A stretch of 44,474 nt of DNA from a virus, in IMG/VR virus record IMGVR_UViG_3300011116_000889, positions 1-44,474 of that record; one strand, written 5' to 3'. The position numbers and the translations under genes were made by a program. Shown here piece after piece: positions 5,746-44,474 of this stretch; the first letter of the stretch is position 1, and every line of letters begins with the position of its first letter. A model generated the notes under the pieces. The model was not told the DNA's origin. It saw nothing but the letters and a program-made list of their open reading frames with translations, and ran no database searches.

Positions 5746-7199
5746 TGCGTACCACCGACATCACCAAGCGTATCCTTATCCCGACCTCGCAAATCATCGA
5801 AGGCGAGCGTGTCCGTTCCGACTACGGTGACCTAGACTCCCTTGCAGACTCCATTCGTAACGAAGGTCTCATCCATCCTGTGGTTATTGATCTTTCTTAC
5901 CGCCTCGTCGCTGGCGGTCGTCGCTTTCGTGCGATGCGTGACATACTTCACCTTACCGAAATCGAAATCAACTTCATCGAAGTCGCCGACGACGCTGTCC
6001 TGCGCCGTCTCGAAGCCGAAGAAAACGTCCGCCGTAAGGACATGACATGGCAGGAGCAAATTCGGTCCATCAAAATGGTCCACCAACACCAAGCGCTCCA
6101 ATCCGCGCTCAAAGGTCAAGGCTGGACTCAATCCATGACGGGCAAGCTGCTCGGTAAATCCCAAGCGAACGTATCCTATGCACTCCAAATCGCCTCACTC
6201 CTCGACGCCGGAGACAAAGACGTCGATGCCTGTTCCGGCCTCACCGACGCAATCAAGCTCCTCATTAAACGCGCTGAGGACACAGCTCTTGCACATCTTG
6301 CAACATCGTCCGTTTCAGGAGTTTCTACTAACCCAACTCAACCCACGGCGCAAGCCGTTGCGGACATTCTTGCTGCCGGAGACGCGGACATATTCTCCCC
6401 GGCAGTGGGCCTCGCTTCTCGACCAAATGATGTTGAACTGCCGACCGGCTCGGCGCCTGCACCGGAAATCGTAATCCCCCTGTCATCCATGTTGTTCAAA
6501 GGCTCTTGTCTTGACTGGATGAAAGGCCAGCCGGCCGACTCGATCGACCACGTCATCACCGACCCGCCATACGCTATCGAAATGACCAACCTTCAACAGG
6601 CCAACACCGGCATGGACGTATCCTCCACCGCCGCCGAGCACGACGTAGCGGACAACGAAACCTTACACTCCCACATGATCCCCGAATTCCACCGGATCAT
6701 GAAACCCGGTGGCTTCTGCATCCTCTGGGCTGACGCGATGCAATGGCAGCGTCAATACGACCTCCTCACCGCTGCCGGTTTCAAAGTCCAACGCTGGCCA
6801 CTCATCTGGGCCAAGACTCACCCCTGTCTCAACCAAGCCGCGCAATACAACTTCACAAAAACGTATGAAATTGCTCTCGTCGCACGAAAAGGAAACGCCA
6901 CTCTCATCACCCCTCAGTCCTCCTCCATTTGGCAAGGGTCAGGCGCAAGCGAAAAGGAACTGTTCGGTCACCCATTCGCCAAACCCACCAACCTCTGGAA
7001 ATGGCTGTTCGGTGCCGTCGCAATCCGTGGTCAACGCATCCTCGACCCATTTGCCGGTTCGGGATCGTCGACAGTATCAGCCATCCAAGTGGGCCTTGCG
7101 CCCATCGCCATTGAACTCAACGAAGCACACTACAACCGCCTAGTCCACAATGTCACCCAAGTCTACCGTGCCATGCACCCCAACGTCCGCTTCGTATGA
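5745..7199 (+). CDS. ParB-domain / DNA (adenine-N6 or cytosine-N4) methyltransferase fusion
   Basis: This 484-residue protein has two parts. Residues 1-150 resemble the ParB/Spo0J N-terminal domain: V-A-G-G-R-R-F-R-A near 54-62, then the ParB box E-A-E-E-N-V-R-R-K-D, then a helix-turn-helix-like stretch near 127-150. After a variable linker, residues 250-484 form an amino-methyltransferase with D273-P-P-Y276 (motif IV) ahead of F436-A-G-S-G440 (AdoMet motif I). That order is the beta class. ParB-type domains can act as CTP switches or nucleases; the arginine patch is present. Likely roles are self-modification against host restriction, or marking of specific sites. The target sequence is unknown. 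The stop overlaps the next start (ATGA). Confidence 0.88.
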   Translation: MRTTDITKRILIPTSQIIEGERVRSDYGDLDSLADSIRNEGLIHPVVIDLSYRLVAGGRRFRAMRDILHLTEIEINFIEVADDAVLRRLEAEENVRRKDMTWQEQIRSIKMVHQHQALQSALKGQGWTQSMTGKLLGKSQANVSYALQIASLLDAGDKDVDACSGLTDAIKLLIKRAEDTALAHLATSSVSGVSTNPTQPTAQAVADILAAGDADIFSPAVGLASRPNDVELPTGSAPAPEIVIPLSSMLFKGSCLDWMKGQPADSIDHVITDPPYAIEMTNLQQANTGMDVSSTAAEHDVADNETLHSHMIPEFHRIMKPGGFCILWADAMQWQRQYDLLTAAGFKVQRWPLIWAKTHPCLNQAAQYNFTKTYEIALVARKGNATLITPQSSSIWQGSGASEKELFGHPFAKPTNLWKWLFGAVAIRGQRILDPFAGSGSSTVSAIQVGLAPIAIELNEAHYNRLVHNVTQVYRAMHPNVRFV

Positions 7200-7390
7200 A
7201 ATCCCTGCGCTTCATCGAGGACGGCACCTTATACGTCATCATGCTAGACTCAACCACCTCCGGTCACGAACTCTCCTCATGCTGGCGGTTCTACCCTGGC
7301 CGCACGGTCGCGGACAAGATTGCACTGTCAGCTTTACCATGGTTCGCACGGCAGAAAATCTGCGAACTCCTCAACGACACAATGCCGTGA
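7196..7390 (+). CDS. Small hypothetical protein, 64 aa
   Basis: Begins in an ATGA overlap with the methyltransferase and ends in a GTGA overlap with the transglycosylase-like gene, so coupling on both sides supports it as real. The sequence has a short beta N-terminus and a helix with A-L-P-W-F-A-R-Q-K-I. No family is recognised. Confidence 0.6.
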   Translation: MKSLRFIEDGTLYVIMLDSTTSGHELSSCWRFYPGRTVADKIALSALPWFARQKICELLNDTMP

Positions 7391-7824
7391 AAAACCTCTG
7401 CTCGAACCACGAACCACACCCCGGTGACCCGCTTCGCGCTCTCGACACCGACCGTCTCCTTCACGCCATAGCCTCGGTCGAATCCGGTCTCAACGACGCA
7501 GCTGTCGGTCGTCGTGACGAACGTGGTCGTTACCAAATCCGACCCAGCACTTGGGCACACTACTCACGAGAACCATTCGCTATGGCACACCATCCCGGTC
7601 CAGCCCGCCAAACCGCCATAGCCTACCTCAACTGCCTGGCCCGCACTCTCCTCGACCACCATCGTATTCCAAACGTCCACGACCTAGCCGTCCTTTGGAA
7701 CACCGGTACCCTTCTCACCCAATCTAACGACTACGCCGTACGCGTAACCGCACTCTACAATGCCAGCGCACCTCAAACAACCTTCTCTCCCGCACCCATC
7801 CTGCCGTTTGGCAATCATCGGTGA
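7387..7824 (+). CDS. Lysozyme-like/lytic transglycosylase (SLT-type), probable lysis enzyme
   Basis: From GTG 7387 the protein has 145 residues. The catalytic region reads A-I-A-S-V-E32-S-G-L-N, then A-V-G-R-x2-E-R-G-R-Y-Q-I and a Trp two residues after P-S-T, the usual order of SLT/goose-lysozyme-type enzymes, with E32 as the acid. A later N-T-G-T and Y-A-x-R-V-x2-L-Y match the family's C-terminal part. There is no signal peptide. The GTG overlaps the previous stop in GTGA, which favours it over ATG 7339. This is the only clear cell-wall enzyme I found, and it sits inside the replication arm, not beside the holin-like gene. It overlaps the polymerase start by 65 bases. Confidence 0.72.
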   Translation: MKNLCSNHEPHPGDPLRALDTDRLLHAIASVESGLNDAAVGRRDERGRYQIRPSTWAHYSREPFAMAHHPGPARQTAIAYLNCLARTLLDHHRIPNVHDLAVLWNTGTLLTQSNDYAVRVTALYNASAPQTTFSPAPILPFGNHR

Positions 7825-32758: not shown

Positions 32759-32992
32759 CTATTTGAAAAATTTGAGAATGACACCACCGAAGGCCAAAGT
32801 CGCCGCGATGACTCCGCGTTGCTTCCAGCGTTCGTGTTCGAGTTCGGTAACTCGGCCGTTGGTCTTTTGGGTCTGAGCAAGGATCGCGTCCAGCTTGGAG
32901 TCCATGTTCTCAAAACGAGTATGCAAGCGTGCAAATACTGCGTCGGTAGAATTAGGATGGTAGCTGTTACTGGAAAACTCGTGGTCGCTCAT
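32759..32992 (-). CDS. Coiled-coil membrane-anchored small protein, 77 aa (XhlA-like)
   Basis: The start at 32992 lies in an ATGA overlap with the holin-like gene. A short coiled coil (residues 20-57, including T-N-G-R-V-T-E-L-E) is followed by one C-terminal membrane segment (A-A-T-L-A-F-G-G-V-I-L-K-F-F). The arrangement fits XhlA-type or spanin-like lysis accessory proteins. It sits next to the holin candidate. Confidence 0.6.
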   Translation of the reverse strand: MSDHEFSSNSYHPNSTDAVFARLHTRFENMDSKLDAILAQTQKTNGRVTELEHERWKQRGVIAATLAFGGVILKFFK

Positions 32993-33405
32993 TTGTTTTT
33001 GACGTAGCGAGCCCCGAACCACCAGAAGATTGCAGTAAAAGACCCGAAGACTATCTCGGATGATAGAGCAGCGCGGTCGGTCGGGGAGGCGTTGAGGTAG
33101 ACTGTCACAATCACGGCAACACTTGCCCAGGTGAGAACCGGTCGGGTAAGCTGTTTGAAGCCGTCGATACTTATGTAGAAATTAGCCACCCACGGGTGAA
33201 TCGTGGGTGGTAAGGACGGCAGTTCGCCGGCACCGGTTTGGCTTGCGGCGAACGCTTTCCACGCTTCGGTTTTTTCTGCTGCGTTAACGGTAGCCTCCAT
33301 CAGTTTAATCTTGTTTTTGGTGTCGAAGTAATCCGTCACACAATGCAAGACTGACCCGAGGATTCCGCCAGACGCGGCGTTTAAGAAAAAACCGGCGATG
33401 TCCAT
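32989..33405 (-). CDS. Holin-like protein (3TM/GTA-type)
   Basis: 138 residues. An N-terminal hydrophobic helix (F-F-L-N-A-A-S-G-G-I-L-G) and two later membrane helices (V-L-T-W-A-S-V-A-V-I-V-T-V-Y-L and V-F-G-S-F-T-A-I-F-W-W-F-G). The middle W-V-A-N-F-Y-I-S-I-D-G-F-K-Q-L-T-R-P matches the pattern of holins of the GTA 3TM family. It probably forms the lesion that triggers lysis. It is about 25 kb away from the transglycosylase-like gene. Confidence 0.68.
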   Translation of the reverse strand: MDIAGFFLNAASGGILGSVLHCVTDYFDTKNKIKLMEATVNAAEKTEAWKAFAASQTGAGELPSLPPTIHPWVANFYISIDGFKQLTRPVLTWASVAVIVTVYLNASPTDRAALSSEIVFGSFTAIFWWFGARYVKNK

Positions 33406-34419: not shown

Positions 34420-35007
34420 TTAAACTTGTGTCACCGTCACGATTATGGACGGTGCGTTGGGTACTGGCGGAGTGCCAGTGTAATATTGTAGTTTGACACC
34501 AGTGTCATCAGCTGACCAAAAGAGTTCGAGGTAGTCAGTAGCGGCCAAAGCCATAACTAGGTTCATGGCCAGAATTACGTGACCATCAGTTGATCCGTGC
34601 TTTGCGAGGATACCTACGACACTGTTGGAGTCAGCGATGGGTTGGCCGTTTTTCTTGAACCAAATACTAGCGTCTTTGTCAAGGCTGCTGTTGTTGGAAA
34701 GCTGGATTGAGTATTGGGTGTTGTAAACCCCGGTGGCGGCGACGGTCAGTTTGGTACCGCCGACAAGGGTGACGCCATTGGATTCGCCAGTGGTGTTAAT
34801 GGTTATGACCTTTATCTCGTCAGCTATGGAGACAGACTGGGTTGTTGTGTCGTAAAAGGTACCGTAGTATTTAGTACCGGAGTATAGGATTTGGTTCGAA
34901 ACTGTCAAGCCGACTAGTGATTGAACCGTTGCTAGGGGACCAAGACCGAGTTGGTCACGAGCGGCTGGCAAATCACCGAATTTGGAAAGTGTGCCAGGTG
35001 TGGACAT
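34420..35007 (-). CDS. C1q/TNF-like jelly-roll virion protein, 195 aa
   Basis: The C-terminal 130 residues are beta-rich with segments resembling C1q/TNF-like trimeric heads: T-G-V-Y-N-T-Q-Y-S-I-Q-L, then A-S-I-W-F-K-K-N-G, then L-E-L-F-W-S-A-D-D-T. The N-terminus is a short linker (L-P-A-A-R-D-Q-L-G-L) such as found at the base of fibre proteins. It probably binds receptor or decorates the virion. Starts in a TAATG overlap with the protease-like gene. Confidence 0.5.
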   Translation of the reverse strand: MSTPGTLSKFGDLPAARDQLGLGPLATVQSLVGLTVSNQILYSGTKYYGTFYDTTTQSVSIADEIKVITINTTGESNGVTLVGGTKLTVAATGVYNTQYSIQLSNNSSLDKDASIWFKKNGQPIADSNSVVGILAKHGSTDGHVILAMNLVMALAATDYLELFWSADDTGVKLQYYTGTPPVPNAPSIIVTVTQV

Positions 35008-35468
35008 TAGCGATTCCAGGTGTAGAGAGTATCGACTATGGAATGAAAGTCTTTTTCGGTAACACGATAGAAAGCCTCACTGCGTGGGTTGTTGAGGCCT
35101 GACATGATCCAACCGCCTGAGTCGCGCTGCGCTGCTTGGTGGATGACAAAACCAACGGCCCAGGTTGGGTGGTAGATAACTAGGTTGCCTTGTTGAATAG
35201 ATGAGTAAGGTAGGTTACCGTACTTTGCGTAGGCTACGATTGTGGTAAGCGGGTCTTCACCGGGACCGGCGGCCGAGATATACGGGGCCATGGAACCCGT
35301 ACCAAGGATTGACATGTAGTTCAAACCGGCGCGTTGTCGAGCTTCGGTTTGGTTGGCGCAAATGACCTTAGGCGGTAAGCCTGAGATCATTGCGTTTTGG
35401 TAGCAGTGTGTTAAGAAAAGAAGAGCACCAACACCTAGAAGGGAGAAAACGAGTAACAGTGGTTTCAA
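35007..35468 (-). CDS. Membrane-anchored signal-peptidase-like (S26/SipW-type) protease
   Basis: 153 residues. One N-terminal membrane helix (residues 4-20) is followed by a soluble domain. Motifs line up with type I signal peptidases: G56-T-G-S59-M-A-P62 around a nucleophile Ser, Q-G-N-L-V-I-Y near 93-99 (usual G-D-x-V), V-I-H110 where archaeal/ER-type enzymes use His, and G-L-N126-N127-P-R-S-E131 where G-D-N-N...D is usual. TTG start at 35468, with the typical AACACC leader. It sits among virion surface genes, so it may process a structural protein or alter secretion. Partial matches make the fold likely and the activity uncertain. Confidence 0.62.
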   Translation of the reverse strand: MKPLLLVFSLLGVGALLFLTHCYQNAMISGLPPKVICANQTEARQRAGLNYMSILGTGSMAPYISAAGPGEDPLTTIVAYAKYGNLPYSSIQQGNLVIYHPTWAVGFVIHQAAQRDSGGWIMSGLNNPRSEAFYRVTEKDFHSIVDTLYTWNR

Positions 35469-35483: not shown

Positions 35484-35612
35484 TTAGACCGAGGTGATGG
35501 TTTCCCAAGCGGTAGCACCACCGACGCGGAGCTTGTTGAGCATGGTGTCAAAGTAGATGGCTCCCTTGACGTAGGTGGGCGCGGAAGCGGTGGCGGCTTG
35601 CTTGGGACACAT
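35484..35612 (-). CDS. Small fibre-associated peptide, 42 aa
   Basis: Starts at 35612 with leader AACTACC-ATG and ends at 35484. The sequence K-G-A-I-Y-F-D-T-M-L-N-K-L-R-V, then T-A-W-E-T-I, matches a small module (x-I-Y-Y-D-T-x2-N-K-L-R-V...A-W) often found at the end of phage head-fibre or tail-fibre proteins. It is placed directly after the fibre-like gene, so it may be a separated C-terminal fibre module. It is shorter than usual ORF cutoffs. Confidence 0.65.
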   Translation of the reverse strand: MCPKQAATASAPTYVKGAIYFDTMLNKLRVGGATAWETITSV

Positions 35613-35626
35613 GGTAGTTGGTTATG

Positions 35627-36796
35627 TTAAAGGAGGAGCCAAGCCGCACCAGTGGAATAGACCGCACGCTTAACCGCGCCACCGCCGGTCGGAGCGGTGC
35701 CAATGCCGGTGCCCGCCGCGTTGGTTGCGTCCGACACGAAAACGATGCCGTAGGTGTTGCCGGCAGCGGCGGCGGGGAGGGTGGCCACCGTGTAGGACTT
35801 GTGAATTATGATGCCCGCAAACGTCGTGTTCTGCGAACTATCTATTGAAACCGCAGTTGTAGGAGAACTTCCGGTTTTTAGATACAGCGTTCCAGTTCCG
35901 CCAGTTTGAAGTGTTGAATCTTCATTACTGCCACCGCCGCCACCTATTACCAGGTTGACGCCAAACTGGGCCGAAATTTGCTGCAAATTTACTATTTTCC
36001 CAGCGAGGGTTCGAAATGTTAACTGCGAATATGTGCCATTGTTACTAAATGTATGGGATAATCCACCATTTGTATAAATGGAAATCTCATTTGCAGCCGA
36101 GCGGTAAAGTGCAACATCCGTCCCAAACCCAATCCCGCCCGCCGAGGTGGTGTGCGTGGCGAGTTGGATTTTACCGTTTGCTGAGTCGGTGGTCGTGCCG
36201 AAGAGGAGGTTGCCAGATGAATTCCAATTCGCCATTCCGACGTTGTTCACAGCAAACGTAAAAAGGCCACCTGTGGGGACATTGAACGCTATGCCGCCCA
36301 AAGAGCCGGTACTACCGATCCATGTTTCCGAACCTGAGCCTATATTCGTTGATGCAAACTTGATGTATCCGGTGAAAGGAGATGCGCCCGTGCCAGAGAC
36401 GGTCAGGTTACTGGCAATCGTCACCGCACCCGTCCCGCTCGGCGTCAGCGTGATGTTTTGGTTCGTGCCGCCTGCTGTCAGCGCAACTGCCCCTGTGCTT
36501 GGCAGCGAAAGGAAGTTTGTCCCCGTTCCATTAAGTTTGATACCTGAACCAAGGCCGGTGATTGAACCGTAGTTAGTACCGGCGAGGGCTATCGAAATGC
36601 TGTTGGCACCGCTAATGTAAAACCCTGTTGCCGGGTCACTCGCAAACGAAATGCTCGGAGCCGCCGCCGTGCCGTTGGCAAAGAGCGCGGTGCCGGTGAC
36701 GGTGAGATTAGTAAACGACGGACTTGAGCCTTTCCCATAACCGACGAGGAAAAGTCCGGAATCCCGATCGAGTTCGATTTTGAGTAGGCCGTCCAT
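35627..36796 (-). CDS. Fibre-like virion protein, 389 aa
   Basis: Gly/Thr/Ser-rich beta-repeat protein with the fibre motif P-S-I-S-F-A-S-D-P-A-T-G-F-Y near residue 50, related to the motif in the fibre at 23943-24989. Repeated G-T-G and N-L-T/S-V-T/S-G-T units look like a triple beta-helix shaft. The C-terminal 45 residues are A/G-rich with V-K-R-A-V-Y-S-T-G-A-A-W, a typical terminal cap. Likely a head or tail fibre. Leader AACC-ATG. Confidence 0.68.
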   Translation of the reverse strand: MDGLLKIELDRDSGLFLVGYGKGSSPSFTNLTVTGTALFANGTAAAPSISFASDPATGFYISGANSISIALAGTNYGSITGLGSGIKLNGTGTNFLSLPSTGAVALTAGGTNQNITLTPSGTGAVTIASNLTVSGTGASPFTGYIKFASTNIGSGSETWIGSTGSLGGIAFNVPTGGLFTFAVNNVGMANWNSSGNLLFGTTTDSANGKIQLATHTTSAGGIGFGTDVALYRSAANEISIYTNGGLSHTFSNNGTYSQLTFRTLAGKIVNLQQISAQFGVNLVIGGGGGSNEDSTLQTGGTGTLYLKTGSSPTTAVSIDSSQNTTFAGIIIHKSYTVATLPAAAAGNTYGIVFVSDATNAAGTGIGTAPTGGGAVKRAVYSTGAAWLLL

Positions 36797-39294: not shown

Positions 39295-39449
39295 CGGGTG
39301 GGGATGAGTGTGCGGTTGACGATCGCTTGAGCTGACGGGGTCAGGGAACCCGAGAAACCGATGGTTACGGACAGACCGGTGAGTTCAAAAATCCGGAGCT
39401 GCGGAAGCTCTGGCTTCGACGTTTCGGTGGCGGCGGGATTCAATGGCAC
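39291..39449 (-). CDS. Small ORF of 52 aa upstream of TerS, GTG start
   Basis: From GTG 39449 the frame runs 52 codons to a TGA whose last three bases overlap the TerS ATG (ATGA at 39291-39294). The sequence has a Pro-rich start and a hydrophobic middle (E-L-T-G-L-S-V-T-I-G-F-S-G-S-L). The 4-base overlap, the usual gene spacing in this genome, is the main support; no family is recognised. Confidence 0.5.
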   Translation of the reverse strand: MPLNPAATETSKPELPQLRIFELTGLSVTIGFSGSLTPSAQAIVNRTLIPTR

Positions 39450-39795
39450 GACCCCAGATTGGCGCAGGCGGGACCGGAGGTGGAGGGTGGATTTGGAATC
39501 TTGGGATTTTCGAAGCGGCGGTGCGGATCAGTTATTGATATGAACCGCGGGTCGGGTCGGGTCGGGTCGCACGCCGGCCGCCGACCTGTCGTCCTGTCAT
39601 CCTCGCTTCCCCCGCGCGCCGTCCTGTTGTCGCCTTTCTTTGTGGTGTGGCTCGAATTCTTAAAATTGAAAACCGCAGGTAGTGGTGATAAGAGTGAGAC
39701 GAAGCCCCTAGGCTGGCAAAGGAACCCCTACGAATGGGTAGGGGGGTATACCCTAGGCAGTATTTCCACAAAAGGTCGGGAGACTGGGTGTAGGG
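39450..39795. other. Non-coding divergent control region, left part
   Basis: Between the leftward late arm and the rightward 39796 gene. It holds palindromic site 7 (39526-39540), four tandem GGGTC units (39549-39568), CCTAGG twice (39707-39712, 39752-39757), a hairpin CCCCTAC/GTAGGGG (39725-39731, 39738-39744) and an adjoining GGTATACC palindrome (39745-39752). It likely carries the late promoter. I see no RNA gene. Confidence 0.6.
39526..39540. promoter_or_regulatory. Palindromic motif site 7 (GATCA-GTTAT-TGATA)
   Basis: Lies 77 bases ahead of the 52-aa ORF start and 232 bases ahead of TerS on the minus strand. Its outer flanks GGTGCG and TGAACC resemble those of sites 3, 4 and 9. The position suits control of the late leftward transcript. 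Confidence 0.7.
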
Positions 39796-40227
39796 TTGGG
39801 TGAGGCAGCGCCGGAATTTAACCCGCTCTCTGATAGCAAGGGGTACGGGGCGGCGGAAGCCAAATCCGGCAAAGATGCCGACCCGATGAAACATATGAAC
39901 GAGGCCCAAATGCAGGTCATTGCAGCGCGTGCGGCGGTTGTTGCTAAGCAGATCGTGCAGAAGCAGATAGACAACGGCAGCAGCAAGCAAGGGATGACGA
40001 AGGCGCGACACATTGCGGTCGTGGCCGATACACTGGTGGCGGTGCTGATTGAGAACGAGGCAGCGCCTGAAGGGGTGGATCGGCTGAAGTGGGATCGGAT
40101 GGTGTTGCGGGCTGCGCTGGGTGGCAGCTTGCTGAACAGCAGTCAACTCCGGCAGGACATGGAGAAGGCTGGGGTGTTGGAGAAAGAGGTGAAGATGCTG
40201 GGTGGTGAATATGGGATTGACGATTGA
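39796..40227 (+). CDS. Hypothetical protein ending in the shared EYGI motif
   Basis: A TTG start at 39796 gives 143 residues; ATG 39886 gives 113. TAGCAAG motif C falls inside the longer version, which favours 39886. The protein is helical with a conserved-looking middle (A-R-A-A-V-V-A-K-Q-I-V-Q-K-Q) and ends L-G-G-E-Y-G-I-D-D, the terminal motif shared with three other proteins here. A strong terminator follows at once, so it is a single-gene unit. Confidence 0.65.
   Translation: MGEAAPEFNPLSDSKGYGAAEAKSGKDADPMKHMNEAQMQVIAARAAVVAKQIVQKQIDNGSSKQGMTKARHIAVVADTLVAVLIENEAAPEGVDRLKWDRMVLRAALGGSLLNSSQLRQDMEKAGVLEKEVKMLGGEYGIDD
39834..39840 (+). promoter_or_regulatory. TAGCAAG leader motif C
   Basis: ACCCGCTCTCTGA followed by TAGCAAG. 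It is 45 bases before the ATG at 39886. Related to motifs at 2951, 41031 and 42627. Confidence 0.35.
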
Positions 40228-40232
40228 GGCAC

Positions 40233-40266
40233 GGGGTGGTGGCCGAAAGGCTGCCACCCCTTTTTT
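40233..40266 (+). terminator. Rho-independent terminator
   Basis: A 12-pair stem (40233-40244 with 40249-40260, two G-U pairs) closes a GAAA tetraloop and is followed by six T residues. It ends the rightward gene at 40227. Confidence 0.9.
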
Positions 40267-40593
40267 GTCGGGTTTTTTTTAAGGGTGGTCTTAAACGCCC
40301 GAGCCTGCGAGCCAGGTGCGGGTGAGAGTGACAGGCGCTGGGGAGGTGGAAGGTGGCCGGCGCTGGAAGGCCGATTGCGAGCTTGGTAAATGGGGTAGGA
40401 TCGACTCGGCGCGGCAGGCTGATAGCTAGGGCGTACGATGCGAGGATTTAACGGGTGGGTGGCGCACGAACGATTACATTTTGCGCGATGAGAAAGTACA
40501 TGGGGAAATCATAGGCCGAGCCTGCGAGCGAGCGAACGAGCCTGCGAGAGGCGCGATAGACCAGTGAGAAACTAATATGTATACTACCTACCT

Positions 40594-40620
40594 TTAACAA
40601 ATTTTTTTTTTTAATATAAT
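40594..40620 (+). promoter_or_regulatory. Candidate sigma70-type promoter
   Basis: TTAACA (40594-40599) and TATAAT (40615-40620) with a 15-base spacer that is mostly T. It points rightward to the 41108 cluster. The spacer is short, so it may instead be only an A/T-rich unwinding element. Confidence 0.35.
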
Positions 40621-40901
40621 GGTCTAGCCGGAAAGCCGCCGGGACGGTTGGGGAGGGAGGCAGCTAGGCACGGTGCGTATCTGAGAATCCGCCAAAAGGC
40701 AGGTAGTGACCCCTCTCTGAAATGGGAGGCATGAAATCGTGCGTGGGCCACCCATCCATGCCATGAGGCAGGCGGGGCGGTGGGGGACGGGAAGGCGACC
40801 GGCCGATTGGCGCGAACTGGAATCGAGCCGCAGGCACCAATTGAAGCGTAGCGTAGCGTAGCGTAGCCACCGGTCGAAGCGGAGCCAGCCTGATTAGGTG
40901 G

Positions 40902-40917
40902 GTATCAGGAATTGATA
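40902..40917. promoter_or_regulatory. Palindromic motif site 8 (GTATCA-GGAAT-TGATA)
   Basis: Core and right flank (TGATAGGGAC) match site 5. It is 191 bases ahead of the start at 41108 in the large non-coding region. Confidence 0.7.
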
Positions 40918-41030
40918 GGGACCGAGGCGGGGCGCGGGGCGGTAGCCGGAGCCGAGCACGGTAGCGAGCACGGTGGCACGGCGAAGAGAGAGTGGTTAGC
41001 TGGGTGGCATGTGAAGCACCCGCTCCTTGA

Positions 41031-41037
41031 TAGCAAG
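41031..41037 (+). promoter_or_regulatory. TAGCAAG leader motif D
   Basis: CACCCGCTCCTTGA precedes TAGCAAG. CCTTG (41025-41029) and CAAGG (41034-41038) form a small hairpin. It is 71 bases before the GTG at 41108. Confidence 0.4.
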
Positions 41038-41107
41038 GGAAGGAAGGCAAGATGCCAGCCAAGCGAAGCGCGGCTTACGCGTTGATTCATGAAAAACGAA
41101 AGACCCT

Positions 41108-41383
41108 GTGAAACAATTAGCTGAAATGGACCGGCAAGAATTGAACGAACTGATAGCGATGTATATTGTTGCGGTTGGAGAACACGGATGCCCGAACTCG
41201 CATGTTTGGACGGCGGTTGATCCGCAGATGACGAGTTGCGATCAACATATGTTGATTGTGGGTGCGTTGAAGGGGTCCGGCACGCTGCGGGAGAGTAATG
41301 ATTTTCTGACCCTGACCGCTAAAGGATTGGAGAAACTCGCCAAGTTGGAGCAGGTGTTTAATGTGCTGGTAAAGAGGAACTAA
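41108..41383 (+). CDS. Small winged-helix-like hypothetical protein, 91 aa
   Basis: GTG start at 41108; ATG 41126 would give 85 residues. The C-terminal stretch D-F-L-T-L-T-A-K-G-L-E-K-L matches the strand-turn-helix that closes many winged-helix transcription regulators (x-L-T-x-K-G-x3-L). The N-terminal helices are compatible. A phage regulator is possible, and it is first in the cluster after the control region. Short length limits confidence. Confidence 0.55.
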   Translation: MKQLAEMDRQELNELIAMYIVAVGEHGCPNSHVWTAVDPQMTSCDQHMLIVGALKGSGTLRESNDFLTLTAKGLEKLAKLEQVFNVLVKRN

Positions 41384-41393
41384 TCGGATTCGA

Positions 41394-41420
41394 CCCGCTC
41401 GGGCGCGATGCTCGGGCGGG
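41394..41420 (+). terminator. Strong hairpin after the 91-aa gene
   Basis: A 10-pair stem (41394-41403 with 41411-41420, two G-U pairs) with a 7-base loop, followed by TTGG and not by a T run. It may attenuate transcription or protect RNA. An upstream ATG (41408) of the next frame falls in the loop, so I start that gene at 41444. Confidence 0.45.
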
Positions 41421-41443
41421 TTGGCCACAACAATTATACGTTT

Positions 41444-42052
41444 ATGAGTAAATATACCGAAATGGAGTTTGCGCATGTGGGTTATCTCATTGCGCAGTTG
41501 GGGCAGTATAGTGTACCAACCAAACACGCGAGTGAGTGGTTGGAGCGGCAACTGGATAAGGCACGGCAGGGACCGAGTGAGGCCGATTTGCGGTGGCTGG
41601 TCGAGCCTGCGGATACGGTGACCGACCATCTTGCGGTGAACGCCACGGTCGATGCGCGTCCAGCGTTGAGTTGTAAGCTCGTGGTCGGGCGGCAGTATTC
41701 GCTCACACCGTCCCAGAGGGATGTGGTACGCGATTGGTATGATATGACGCCCGCACCGACCGTGATGGTTGCGTCGATTGCGTTGCATGAGGGGACACAG
41801 GCGGTTAAGTCGGTGCTGGTGGTGTCGTGCGAACACGTCGACCCGTGGCGGAAAGCAATGTTGACACAGTTCAGCATTACTAAATGGGGCACGTTTTGTG
41901 ATAAAGTGCGCCAACGTGAGCACGAGCGTGCGGGGGAAGCGGTTCAAGCGGTGGAAGACGGGTTGAAAGCACCCAAGAAAGACAAAGCGCCAGCGAAACC
42001 GAAGAAAGCGCCATTGCTAAGTGAACTGATGAACGAATACGGAGTTGACTAA
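41444..42052 (+). CDS. Hypothetical protein with Lys/Pro linker and LMNEYGVD C-terminal motif
   Basis: 202 residues from ATG 41444. The N-terminal helix region and a beta region (T-V-M-V-A-S-I-A-L, V-L-V-V-S-C) are followed from about residue 170 by a Lys/Pro/Ala-rich linker and the terminal L-M-N-E-Y-G-V-D. The linker-plus-tag layout repeats in the protein at 1652-1942. No family is recognised. Two bases separate it from the next gene. Confidence 0.7.
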   Translation: MSKYTEMEFAHVGYLIAQLGQYSVPTKHASEWLERQLDKARQGPSEADLRWLVEPADTVTDHLAVNATVDARPALSCKLVVGRQYSLTPSQRDVVRDWYDMTPAPTVMVASIALHEGTQAVKSVLVVSCEHVDPWRKAMLTQFSITKWGTFCDKVRQREHERAGEAVQAVEDGLKAPKKDKAPAKPKKAPLLSELMNEYGVD

Positions 42053-42053
42053 C

Positions 42054-42599
42054 ATGCAAACGTTTTTACCTTATAGTGACTTTAACCGCTCGGCGCTCGC
42101 GTTGGACCGACAAAGGCTCGGCAAGCAGCGCGTGGAGTGTAAACAGATAGTCCTCGCGTTGGGCAATCCGACGTACGGGTGGCAGAACCATCCAGCGGTG
42201 CGCATGTGGCGTGGGCACGCGAGGGTGTTGTGTGAGTATGGCTTCATCATCTGCACCGAGTGGGTGAAACGAGGGTATGTTGACTCGTTGAAAGACTTTT
42301 TCGAGTACGAAGATAATCTAATGTACCTTCGCGGGGTGCCACGTGTTGAACCTTTGTGGCTCGGCCTGCCCGAGTTTCATCGGTCACACCAGTCGAACCT
42401 GATTCGTAAAAACCCGAGTCATTACCAGCACCAGTTTCCCGATGTGCCAGCAGACTTACCGTACATCTGGCCGCTTGAGCGGTGTGTATCAGTTATTGAT
42501 CCGCACCCGCCGAGCACGACAAACGCTTCCGTGGTCCCGTTGTATTCGGGTGTCGCGTGGGCTAGCAAGATTCGCGATCAACAGGCCAATGGGGATTGA
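42054..42599 (+). CDS. Pyrimidine-dimer DNA glycosylase-like protein (MSMEG_6728/T4 endonuclease V family)
   Basis: 181 residues from ATG 42054. The opening M-Q-T-F-L-P-Y-S-D-F and L-D-R-Q-R-L-G-K-Q-R-V-E, then G-W-Q-N-H-P-A-V-R-M-W, F-H-R-S-H-Q-S-N-L-I and K-N-P-S-H-Y match the MSMEG_6728 branch of this family. These proteins are annotated as pyrimidine-dimer glycosylases that nick beside UV lesions. Palindromic site 9 lies inside the coding sequence near its end. The TTG at 42045 is a weaker start. Confidence 0.82.
   Translation: MQTFLPYSDFNRSALALDRQRLGKQRVECKQIVLALGNPTYGWQNHPAVRMWRGHARVLCEYGFIICTEWVKRGYVDSLKDFFEYEDNLMYLRGVPRVEPLWLGLPEFHRSHQSNLIRKNPSHYQHQFPDVPADLPYIWPLERCVSVIDPHPPSTTNASVVPLYSGVAWASKIRDQQANGD
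42482..42507. promoter_or_regulatory. Palindromic motif site 9, inside a coding sequence
   Basis: Core GTATCA-GTTAT-TGATC at 42486-42501 with outer flanks GGTGT and CGCACC that are also paired. It is within the glycosylase gene, 242 bases from the start at 42749. Codons there (V-S-V-I-D-P) do not look constrained by repeat structure. Confidence 0.65.
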
Positions 42600-42626
42600 G
42601 TGCCACGCATTGCACCCTCTCTTGCC

Positions 42627-42633
42627 TAGCAAG
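42627..42633 (+). promoter_or_regulatory. TAGCAAG leader motif B
   Basis: ACCCTCTCTTGCC precedes TAGCAAG. CTTGC (42621-42625) and GCAAG (42629-42633) pair. It is 116 bases before the ATG at 42749. Confidence 0.4.
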
Positions 42634-42642
42634 CTTTGGGAA

Positions 42643-42698
42643 GGGATGCCCCTATTTTGCATCCCAAGTGGGTGGGGTCGGCCACATTTTCCGACCCC
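42643..42698 (+). other. Two tandem hairpins in the leader of the 213-aa gene
   Basis: Stem 1 is GGGATGC/GCATCCC (42643-42649, 42659-42665) and stem 2 is GGGGTCGG/CCGACCCC (42674-42681, 42691-42698), both perfect. Neither has a T run. They occupy the 149-base gap after the glycosylase gene and may form a structured 5' leader. Confidence 0.55.
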
Positions 42699-42748
42699 GA
42701 ACGAGCTAAAGCGATAGGTTCGCAAGGTTATCGCAAACACACAAAGTC

Positions 42749-43390
42749 ATGGTTACCAAACAGGTTAGCACACTCGGATTCGATCTCAATGTCAATGTAC
42801 CCTCGACCATCGGGGAGTATGACCAGCTTGCCAAGAAAGACGGCGCGGCACTGGAGAGTGCGGTACTGAATGTACTCTATCGGTCCGTGTTCGCCAAGTT
42901 CCGGTCGCAGTTTGCCGAGGCGGTCGAGAATAACACCAGCATTGCTCGGGCCACCGAGCCGACTGGTAAGAAGGTGAAGGACGAGGCCGGCAATGAGACC
43001 ACGGAGGATGCCGTCCGTTTTAGCGAAACGGAGAAGGTGTACTTCGATCGCGTATGCGCTGAGCTGACCAAGTCTGGTCAGTTCTCGTCCGTCGAAGCCG
43101 CGGCAGCGTCGTTTGCTGCGTTGGCACAAACCACCATCGAGACCATCACGTTCGACCCCTCGGAGTCCGAAAAGGCTCCGTCCGGTCCCAAGAAGGTCGC
43201 GAAGGCGTACGTCGTCCTCGCGGAGAAGGCGCAGGCGAACGGCAAGTTGGACGCCCTCGCGTCCCAGCTATCGAGCAAGTTGGTCAACTGGAAGGTCGAG
43301 GCGAATGTCGATTCCGTCGCCAAGGCCATCGCGGAAGACCAACGCCGCAAGCGCGAGGCGCAGAAGTTGGATGCCGAGTACGGCGTTTAA
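42749..43390 (+). CDS. Hypothetical protein ending in LDAEYGV
   Basis: 213 residues, with an alternating helical, Lys/Ala-rich sequence in the second half. The N-terminus T-K-Q-V-S-T-L-G-F-D-L-N-V-N-V begins with beta strands. It ends with R-R-K-R-E-A-Q-K-L-D-A-E-Y-G-V, a basic linker plus the shared tag. The isolated unit, with a structured leader and a terminator, suggests a highly expressed or separately controlled gene. No family is recognised. Confidence 0.75.
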   Translation: MVTKQVSTLGFDLNVNVPSTIGEYDQLAKKDGAALESAVLNVLYRSVFAKFRSQFAEAVENNTSIARATEPTGKKVKDEAGNETTEDAVRFSETEKVYFDRVCAELTKSGQFSSVEAAAASFAALAQTTIETITFDPSESEKAPSGPKKVAKAYVVLAEKAQANGKLDALASQLSSKLVNWKVEANVDSVAKAIAEDQRRKREAQKLDAEYGV

Positions 43391-43399
43391 TGCCTCATC

Positions 43400-43433
43400 G
43401 AGCCCACGGGTCATCCCACCTGTGGGCTCTTTT
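43400..43433 (+). terminator. Rho-independent terminator
   Basis: An 8-pair stem GAGCCCAC/GTGGGCTC (43400-43407, 43422-43429) with a 14-base loop, followed by TTTT. It starts 10 bases after the stop at 43390. Confidence 0.75.
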
Positions 43434-43461
43434 GAGTTATTAACCCTGAAAATATACCACC

Positions 43462-43566
43462 ATGCATGAAGTGACTATTGCGGAAATGGTCTTGCACTTT
43501 TTCCTTGCGGTTTCGATTGGGTTTGTGATTGGACTTGTAACGGCACTTAAGTTTCCACGCAAATGA
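43462..43566 (+). CDS. Small membrane protein, 34 aa
   Basis: One hydrophobic segment of about 20 residues (F-F-L-A-V-S-I-G-F-V-I-G-L-V-T-A-L) and a basic C-terminus. The leader is ATACCACC-ATG. It overlaps the next ORF in an ATGA. A small membrane protein is likely; its role is unknown. Confidence 0.6.
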   Translation: MHEVTIAEMVLHFFLAVSIGFVIGLVTALKFPRK

Positions 43567-43634
43567 GCGATGAGCAGTACTGCGATTTATTGGCCAACGC
43601 CATCCAATCCGCGAAGGAGACGCTTTCAAAATGA
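43563..43634 (+). CDS. Very small ORF, 23 aa
   Basis: Begins in an ATGA overlap with the membrane gene and ends in another ATGA overlap with the 77-aa gene. Only the chain of exact 4-base overlaps supports it. The sequence is acidic and helical (D-E-Q-Y-C-D-L-L-A-N-A-I). Confidence 0.45.
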   Translation: MSDEQYCDLLANAIQSAKETLSK

Positions 43635-43864
43635 ACACCGACACACCGAGAACGGATCACGTTCTAAGGACTACCTTTGGATCAGAGTTCAACGAATACG
43701 CTCAGGCGTTTTTACCTTTATGCCGCCAGCTAGAGCGCGACCTTGCCGCCGCGCAGGACGAAATAGCTCAACTGGGCCGCGAACAGTACGCGGCAGAGCG
43801 CGAACTCGATGCCGCACGGCTCGAATTAGGCTTCCTACGGCAACAGGGCACCAAGTGGTGGTAA
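43631..43864 (+). CDS. Small coiled-coil protein, 77 aa
   Basis: A Leu/Glu/Arg/Ala-rich coiled coil spans residues 30-70 (C-R-Q-L-E-R-D-L-A-A-A). The N-terminus M-N-T-D-T-P-R-T-D is typical of a widespread group of small phage proteins of unknown function. Coupled to the 23-aa ORF by ATGA. Confidence 0.65.
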   Translation: MNTDTPRTDHVLRTTFGSEFNEYAQAFLPLCRQLERDLAAAQDEIAQLGREQYAAERELDAARLELGFLRQQGTKWW

Positions 43865-43875
43865 ATAGCGACCAA

Positions 43876-44283
43876 ATGAAAACACAAAATACAGGAACAC
43901 TATCAACGGAAGTCGAAGCCTTAAGCAAGGGCGTTGGCTGTCACGCTTTGTTAGCCGAGGTTTCTTACGTCGCAGAAAACCTGCGAGAATGGGCGAGGGA
44001 GGAGTTTCAGCCGAACTGCCATCCGGTAACGCTTACGCTACATCGAGCTGCGACCGTTCTGGAGAAAATCGCGCATCGTCTGTTGGCGGAAAAGCTGGCC
44101 GAGAAAAACTTTGGGTGCCTCGTGACGGCCATCGGTGAGTATCGCGCTGCGCTAGATGATATAGCTGAACTTTCAGAATCTGGCGACGCAAGTAGGCTAC
44201 GAGACTTTGGTGACATCGCCAGAAAGTCGTTGGAAGTTGGCGCATGTATTCAGGCAGCCGCACGCAAGGAGGCAGCACCGTGA
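43876..44283 (+). CDS. Hypothetical helical protein, 135 aa
   Basis: Start chosen at ATG 43876; longer in-frame versions run through the previous genes and look like shadow sequence. The protein is all helical, with L-A-E-K-L-A-E-K-N-F-G and A-L-D-D-I-A-E-L. Its TGA overlaps the GTG at 44280 (GTGA). No family is recognised. Confidence 0.65.
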   Translation: MKTQNTGTLSTEVEALSKGVGCHALLAEVSYVAENLREWAREEFQPNCHPVTLTLHRAATVLEKIAHRLLAEKLAEKNFGCLVTAIGEYRAALDDIAELSESGDASRLRDFGDIARKSLEVGACIQAAARKEAAP

Positions 44284-44474
44284 CCCCGCCCACCATGACC
44301 CCCGAAGAATTCGACACCCTCCTGTCCCGTCACGACTGGCATTACGCCTACTCCGACGACCACGGCGTTTGGACCCGTGGCGAGGCTGAACTTGCTAAGA
44401 TACACCACATTCTTAAAACCCGCCCTGACCTTCAACCCATCTACCAACTCTGGCTGAGTCGAATCTTTTCCAAG
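44280..44474 (+). CDS. Small hypothetical protein, 5' part of a gene split by the contig junction
   Basis: GTG 44280 is in a GTGA overlap with the gene before it; ATG 44295 is an alternative. The frame continues into base 2 of this window and stops at 142, giving 69 or 64 residues in total. It shows that the genome closes at the repeat. Confidence 0.65.
   Translation, partial: MTPPTMTPEEFDTLLSRHDWHYAYSDDHGVWTRGEAELAKIHHILKTRPDLQPIYQLWLSRIFSK
44348..44474. repeat. Terminal direct repeat, right copy
   Basis: Exact copy of bases 1-127. Removing one copy gives 44,347 unique bases. The sequence upstream (44280-44347) supplies the missing 5' end of the frame that is cut at base 1. Confidence 0.95.

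Follow-up and report, generated by a model that had tools for sequence, protein, structure and literature searches.

A predicted S26B-like membrane-anchored serine protease of uncultivated phages, recurrent beside holin-like and spanin-like genes

The window analysed here is the whole 44,474-nucleotide stretch of the IMG/VR virus record IMGVR_UViG_3300011116_000889. Among late genes on its minus strand lies an open reading frame predicted to encode a membrane-anchored serine protease, for which the following genes and features are relevant.

32759..33022 (-): coiled-coil protein with a C-terminal hydrophobic stretch, adjoining the holin-like gene (from sequence; weak phrog_5225 match)
32989..33405 (-): 138-aa holin-like gene of group C2a (GTA_holin_3TM and phrog_6637 matches, both weak)
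34420..35007 (-): C1q/BclA_C-like tail protein gene (weak BclA_C match; weak match to phrog_30509, collagen-like minor tail)
35007..35468 (-): predicted S26B-like membrane-anchored serine protease gene, 153 aa, TTG start
35076..35078 (-): E131 codon, presumed triad acid (GxxN-box spacing the same as for SEC11A D122)
35094..35096 (-): L125 codon, where S26B enzymes have their first (GDN) Asp, lost here (pairs with SEC11A D116)
35139..35141 (-): H110 codon, presumed general base (His in 56/56; pairs with SEC11A H96)
35292..35294 (-): S59 codon, presumed nucleophile in the GTGSMAP box (Ser in 53/53; pairs with SEC11A S56)
35382..35465 (-): predicted N-terminal membrane helix, residues 2-29 (AlphaFold2 model and hydrophobic sequence)
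35484..35612 (-): 42-aa ORF between the fibre and protease genes (read from sequence)
35627..36796 (-): upstream fibre-like virion protein gene, cluster C1 (weak match to phrog_692, virion structural protein)

An earlier, sequence-only reading had placed a signal-peptidase-like membrane protease at 35007-35468 on the minus strand, and a frame of 153 codons with a TTG start was indeed found there. The N-terminal anchor it described is seen both as a hydrophobic stretch and as a predicted helix of residues 2-29. The motifs GTGSMAP (S59), VIH (H110) and GLNN at 124-127 could be read directly from the sequence, the last being the G-x-N-N region that it had named (G124-L125-N-N). Its two departures from the usual residues, N95 and L125, hold for the window protein; across the family position 95 is not conserved (N, D, A, T or S).

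Relatives of the protease were detected in 40 viral contigs by a single-sequence scan, and profile scans of viral contigs raised the number to 54 loci and, with eight new ones, to 62, giving about 62 other contigs from uncultivated phages and several different phage backbones. With this many contigs holding relatives, and a median dN/dS of about 0.25 (pairs with dS 0.2-1.2), as in proteins under selection, the ORF cannot be put down to chance. No relatives were found in bacterial and archaeal genomes by two scans with two profiles, nor did single-sequence searches of Pfam, PHROGs, PDB sequences and a phage collection return a match. Plasmid matches from Streptomyces (E 0.7) were dropped.

Conservation was tallied over 56 family rows, in which one row is counted twice because L016 and L127 are one gene on one contig. 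Residue 59 is Ser, and residue 62 Pro, in all 53 rows holding these columns, and residue 110 is His in 56 of 56. Residue 131 is Glu in 53 rows and Asp in two; Asp is the residue found in the distant relatives L161, L163, L198, L200 and L203. At residue 125, Leu occupies 55 rows and Tyr one, with Ile in the most distant relatives and Asp in none. The invariance of Ser and His and the acid at 131 hold down to approximately 35% identity, and there is no Lys among the columns conserved at 95% between residues 50 and 153.

A model of the window protein was built with AlphaFold2 using 20 relatives (pLDDT 92.9, pTM 0.83) and consists of a helix, residues 2-29, followed by a beta domain. The top five Foldseek matches to the PDB were signal peptidase chains, SEC11C being first (E 0.013). 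VIA Z scores were 8.4 for Streptococcus pyogenes SipA, 8.0 for LepB, 7.9 for LexA and 7.5 for SEC11C; UmuD and CI also appear in this list, with unrelated Tudor-type entries from about 5.7 downwards. For the distant member L040, a second model (pLDDT 89.0) gave almost exclusively LexA, CI, UmuD and signal peptidases as its top matches. Since each match is modest when taken alone, with no Foldseek E below 0.001, the evidence for the fold lies in the agreement across the two models. The S24/S26 catalytic fold was recognised in both, so that structure prediction, proposed earlier as a check, did reveal the expected core. A repressor-type S24 autopeptidase of the LexA/UmuD kind was considered and rejected, as residue 110 is always His, a Lys base is missing and the protein carries an anchor.

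For comparison with characterized enzymes, a reference profile was assembled from 14 S26B sequences, comprising SEC11A and SEC11C and twelve S26B-type proteins (eleven from plasmids and one from a phage record); the SEC11A sequence agrees with a check against PDB 7p2p. The phage-family profile matched this reference with P 2.4e-5, and the alignment paired S59 with S56 of SEC11A, H110 with H96, L125 with D116 and E131 with D122, which bears out the earlier assignment of G-S59-M-A-P and V-I-H110 to the S26B Ser/His pair. The family thus has the Ser of the GxSMxP box, a His rather than a Lys at the base position and, by spacing and profile alignment, the second acid; the first conserved Asp (GDN) is missing throughout. 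The curated NCBIfam model TIGR02228 (sigpep_I_arch) matches 13 of 20 members, the best at 1e-7 (L040), with 13.1 bits for the window protein and 32 bits for the best relative, none reaching the curated threshold of 51.85 bits. The proposal of an S26-like Ser/His membrane protease of the ER/archaeal type therefore stands as far as fold, profile alignment and a sub-threshold TIGR02228 signal go, and falls short at the cut-off and the GDN Asp. On these two grounds the phage protein is classed as a side branch that is S26B-like but outside the curated signal peptidase family.

The acids needed for catalysis differ among S26B enzymes: yeast signal peptidase requires both Asp residues, whereas archaeal enzymes require only one (PMC2913515). 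In M. voltae, the crucial residues are given as Ser52, His122 and Asp148, in a table row that is seemingly shifted by one entry (PMC4343526); from the spacing, Asp148 would be the second Asp. SEC11A has been described with a Ser-His-Asp triad (PMC13385932). Because archaeal enzymes need one of the two Asp residues, the replacement of Asp by L125 is by itself no argument against activity, and the invariant Ser and His together with the constant acid at 131 argue for an active protease.

The N-terminus also bears on the side of the membrane. In three distant relatives (L198, L200 and L203) the membrane helix is replaced by a lipoprotein signal with an LAGC lipobox, from which it follows that their catalytic domain should be exported. 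The anchor of the window protein fits an N-in, C-out topology, and a periplasmic catalytic domain is supported by these lipobox relatives.

Within the window, the stop of the protease gene overlaps the start of the C1q/BclA_C-like tail gene (TAATG), and fibre-like genes flank it on both sides, as the sequence-only reading had it; for the family that description is incomplete, lysis-type genes lying downstream. The holin-like gene of the window is situated about 1.6 kb from the protease gene, with tail genes in between, and scored 15.1 bits against GTA_holin_3TM (PF11351; cut-off 24.8). In other phages, its group C2a relatives immediately follow the protease gene. The adjoining coiled-coil protein (32759..33022) is a possible lysis accessory. 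Elsewhere in the window, far from the late genes, an ORF at 7150-7824 (+) contains an SLT (lytic transglycosylase) domain at 7453-7656, above the Pfam cut-off, making it a candidate endolysin; it is present too in G015, the record of L027. The approximately 5 kb past the terminase gene (39361-44474) hold only short or low-evidence ORFs, and no tRNA genes were found in the window.

Across the 56 family rows, a fibre-like gene of cluster C1 is often the upstream neighbour (35 loci). Downstream, 39 of 56 loci have a holin-like gene no more than 1.2 kb away. These holin-like genes fall into three sequence groups, are often accompanied by small transmembrane proteins (C4, C16 and C10) and include one group that exceeds the GTA_holin_3TM cut-off in G003, G004, G007 and G008, where it closely follows the protease gene. 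In 11 further loci (L122, L123, L124, L128, L132, L134, L135, L161, L163, L178 and L200, of which L123, L134 and L178 were judged by eye) the next downstream gene encodes a lipoprotein with one or more C-terminal transmembrane segments, roughly 200-360 aa long in L161, L163, L200, L122, L123, L124, L128 and L178. The lipoproteins scanned gave no convincing Pfam match; a lipoprotein with a C-terminal transmembrane segment is the architecture of unimolecular spanins (PMC6139136), and by this arrangement they may be called u-spanin-like. Both arrangements recur on several phage backbones. Five loci (L001, L002, L003, L005 and L040) showed no recognisable holin-like or lipoprotein gene beside the protease gene. 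No endolysin was named among 80 neighbouring proteins by Pfam or by PHROGs (best 25 of 98 families); a search for M15_3 was empty, as was one for GH108, the control for which was also without any match.

Two other gene types were noted upstream of the protease. Between the fibre and protease genes of L006, L011, L013 and L035 lies a 234-aa protein (cluster C24) that by eye resembles a GIY-YIG homing endonuclease (GIHCLANGKWYVGESKNVKRR). In one phage group, a protein of about 2370 aa (cluster C27; L126 2853-9983 and L016/L127) is encoded directly upstream of the protease gene, and an LPD38 polyvalent-protein domain was found in the L126 copy.

The presence of the protease was also compared among terminase relatives of the window. 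L042 (83% identity) and L043 (80%) have neither the protease gene nor a holin-like gene, and L045 has a holin-like gene and no protease gene. As its nearest terminase relatives do without it, the protease gene is not essential for this phage type.

Taken together, these results make it fairly probable that the protein is a periplasmic S26B-like processing protease of a late envelope/lysis module, cutting envelope proteins, most likely lysis proteins of the phage itself. A single N-terminal helix would tether it to the inner membrane of the host, and its beta catalytic domain would lie in the periplasm, where Ser59, His110 and the acid Glu131 would carry out catalysis. As part of the late envelope/lysis module it would remove a signal or anchor peptide from at least one envelope protein, most likely a phage lysis protein of the same cassette, which would thereby be released or activated at the right time. 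What the analysis shows directly is the family, its fold, the conservation of the catalytic residues, the membrane helix or lipobox in the sequences and the gene context; the role in lysis, the catalytic activity and the periplasmic side are what we infer. That signal-peptidase processing can matter in lysis is indicated by the T4 antiholin RI, a lysis protein with a cleavable signal peptide (PMC8385771).

The sequence-only reading had left the function open between maturation of a virion protein, maturation of a lysis protein and an action on host secretion. A role in assembly, with the protease cutting the fibre or tail product of a neighbouring gene, is suggested by the fibre-like C1 genes upstream in many loci and, in the window, by the overlap with the C1q-like tail gene. 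Phage tails, however, assemble in the cytoplasm, while the N-terminal anchor, and the lipobox of the distant relatives, point to an exported domain, and in most loci the downstream genes are of envelope type. The relatives' gene neighbourhoods thus favour, without proving, a lysis module over virion maturation, which we regard as improbable.

Absence from close terminase relatives and occurrence on several phage backbones are what accessory genes display, and the protease might act on host envelope proteins, for instance in secretome processing or superinfection exclusion, merely travelling with the lysis genes. That it keeps turning up next to holin-like or spanin-like genes on different backbones suggests instead a tie to them, and we consider such a host-directed role unlikely, if less so than virion maturation. 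The fold could also be catalytically dead, serving as a scaffold or regulator in the manner of Streptococcus pyogenes SipA, which is among the best structural matches and is without the catalytic Ser and base (PMC12984324); the loss of the GDN Asp would agree with this. Invariant Ser and His and an acid at every 131, kept down to about 35% identity, speak against it, and an inactive protein seems improbable.

Holin, endolysin and spanin make up the usual account of phage lysis. To this, a conserved protease of the signal-peptidase-like type next to holin-like or spanin-like genes would add a protein-processing step carried by the phage and, as the lysis-like neighbours hint, phage release may include a protein-cutting step that has been overlooked. 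More tentatively, a dedicated periplasmic S26-type Ser-His-Glu protease may be a regular member of the lysis cassette in many environmental phages, providing a proteolytic maturation or trigger step in holin/spanin lysis; if true, this step would lie outside the standard holin/spanin model. Searches of the open-licence literature turned up no account of a signal peptidase that is encoded by a phage and takes part in lysis. A family that no longer has the GDN Asp, and in which the remaining acid is mostly Glu, also offers a natural experiment on the requirements of the Ser-His mechanism.

Among known systems, the ER/archaeal-type signal peptidase I (MEROPS S26B; SEC11A/C, archaeal Sec11 and SipW; TIGR02228) shares its fold and the (here predicted) N-terminal anchor with the phage family, along with the GxSMxP Ser, the His base and the second acid at equal spacing. 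The phage proteins differ in having Leu, Ile or Tyr for the first Asp of GDN and mostly Glu for the second Asp, in extra residues after the Ser box, in a TIGR02228 score below the cut-off and in lysis-type gene neighbours. Two phage proteins in BFVD annotated as Sigpep_I_arch or Peptidase S26, A0A6J5PXA0 and A0A8S5LXF4, have a similar predicted fold (E 1.5e-3 and 2.6e-2, respectively), but are only 15% identical. The self-cleaving S24 domains of LexA, UmuD and CI have the superfamily fold in common with the phage family; they use a Lys base and are cytoplasmic, whereas in the phage proteins the His never varies and the N-terminus carries a predicted membrane anchor or a lipobox. SipA, the signal-peptidase homologue with the top VIA Z (8.4) for the window model, differs in its active site, for the phage family retains both Ser and His.
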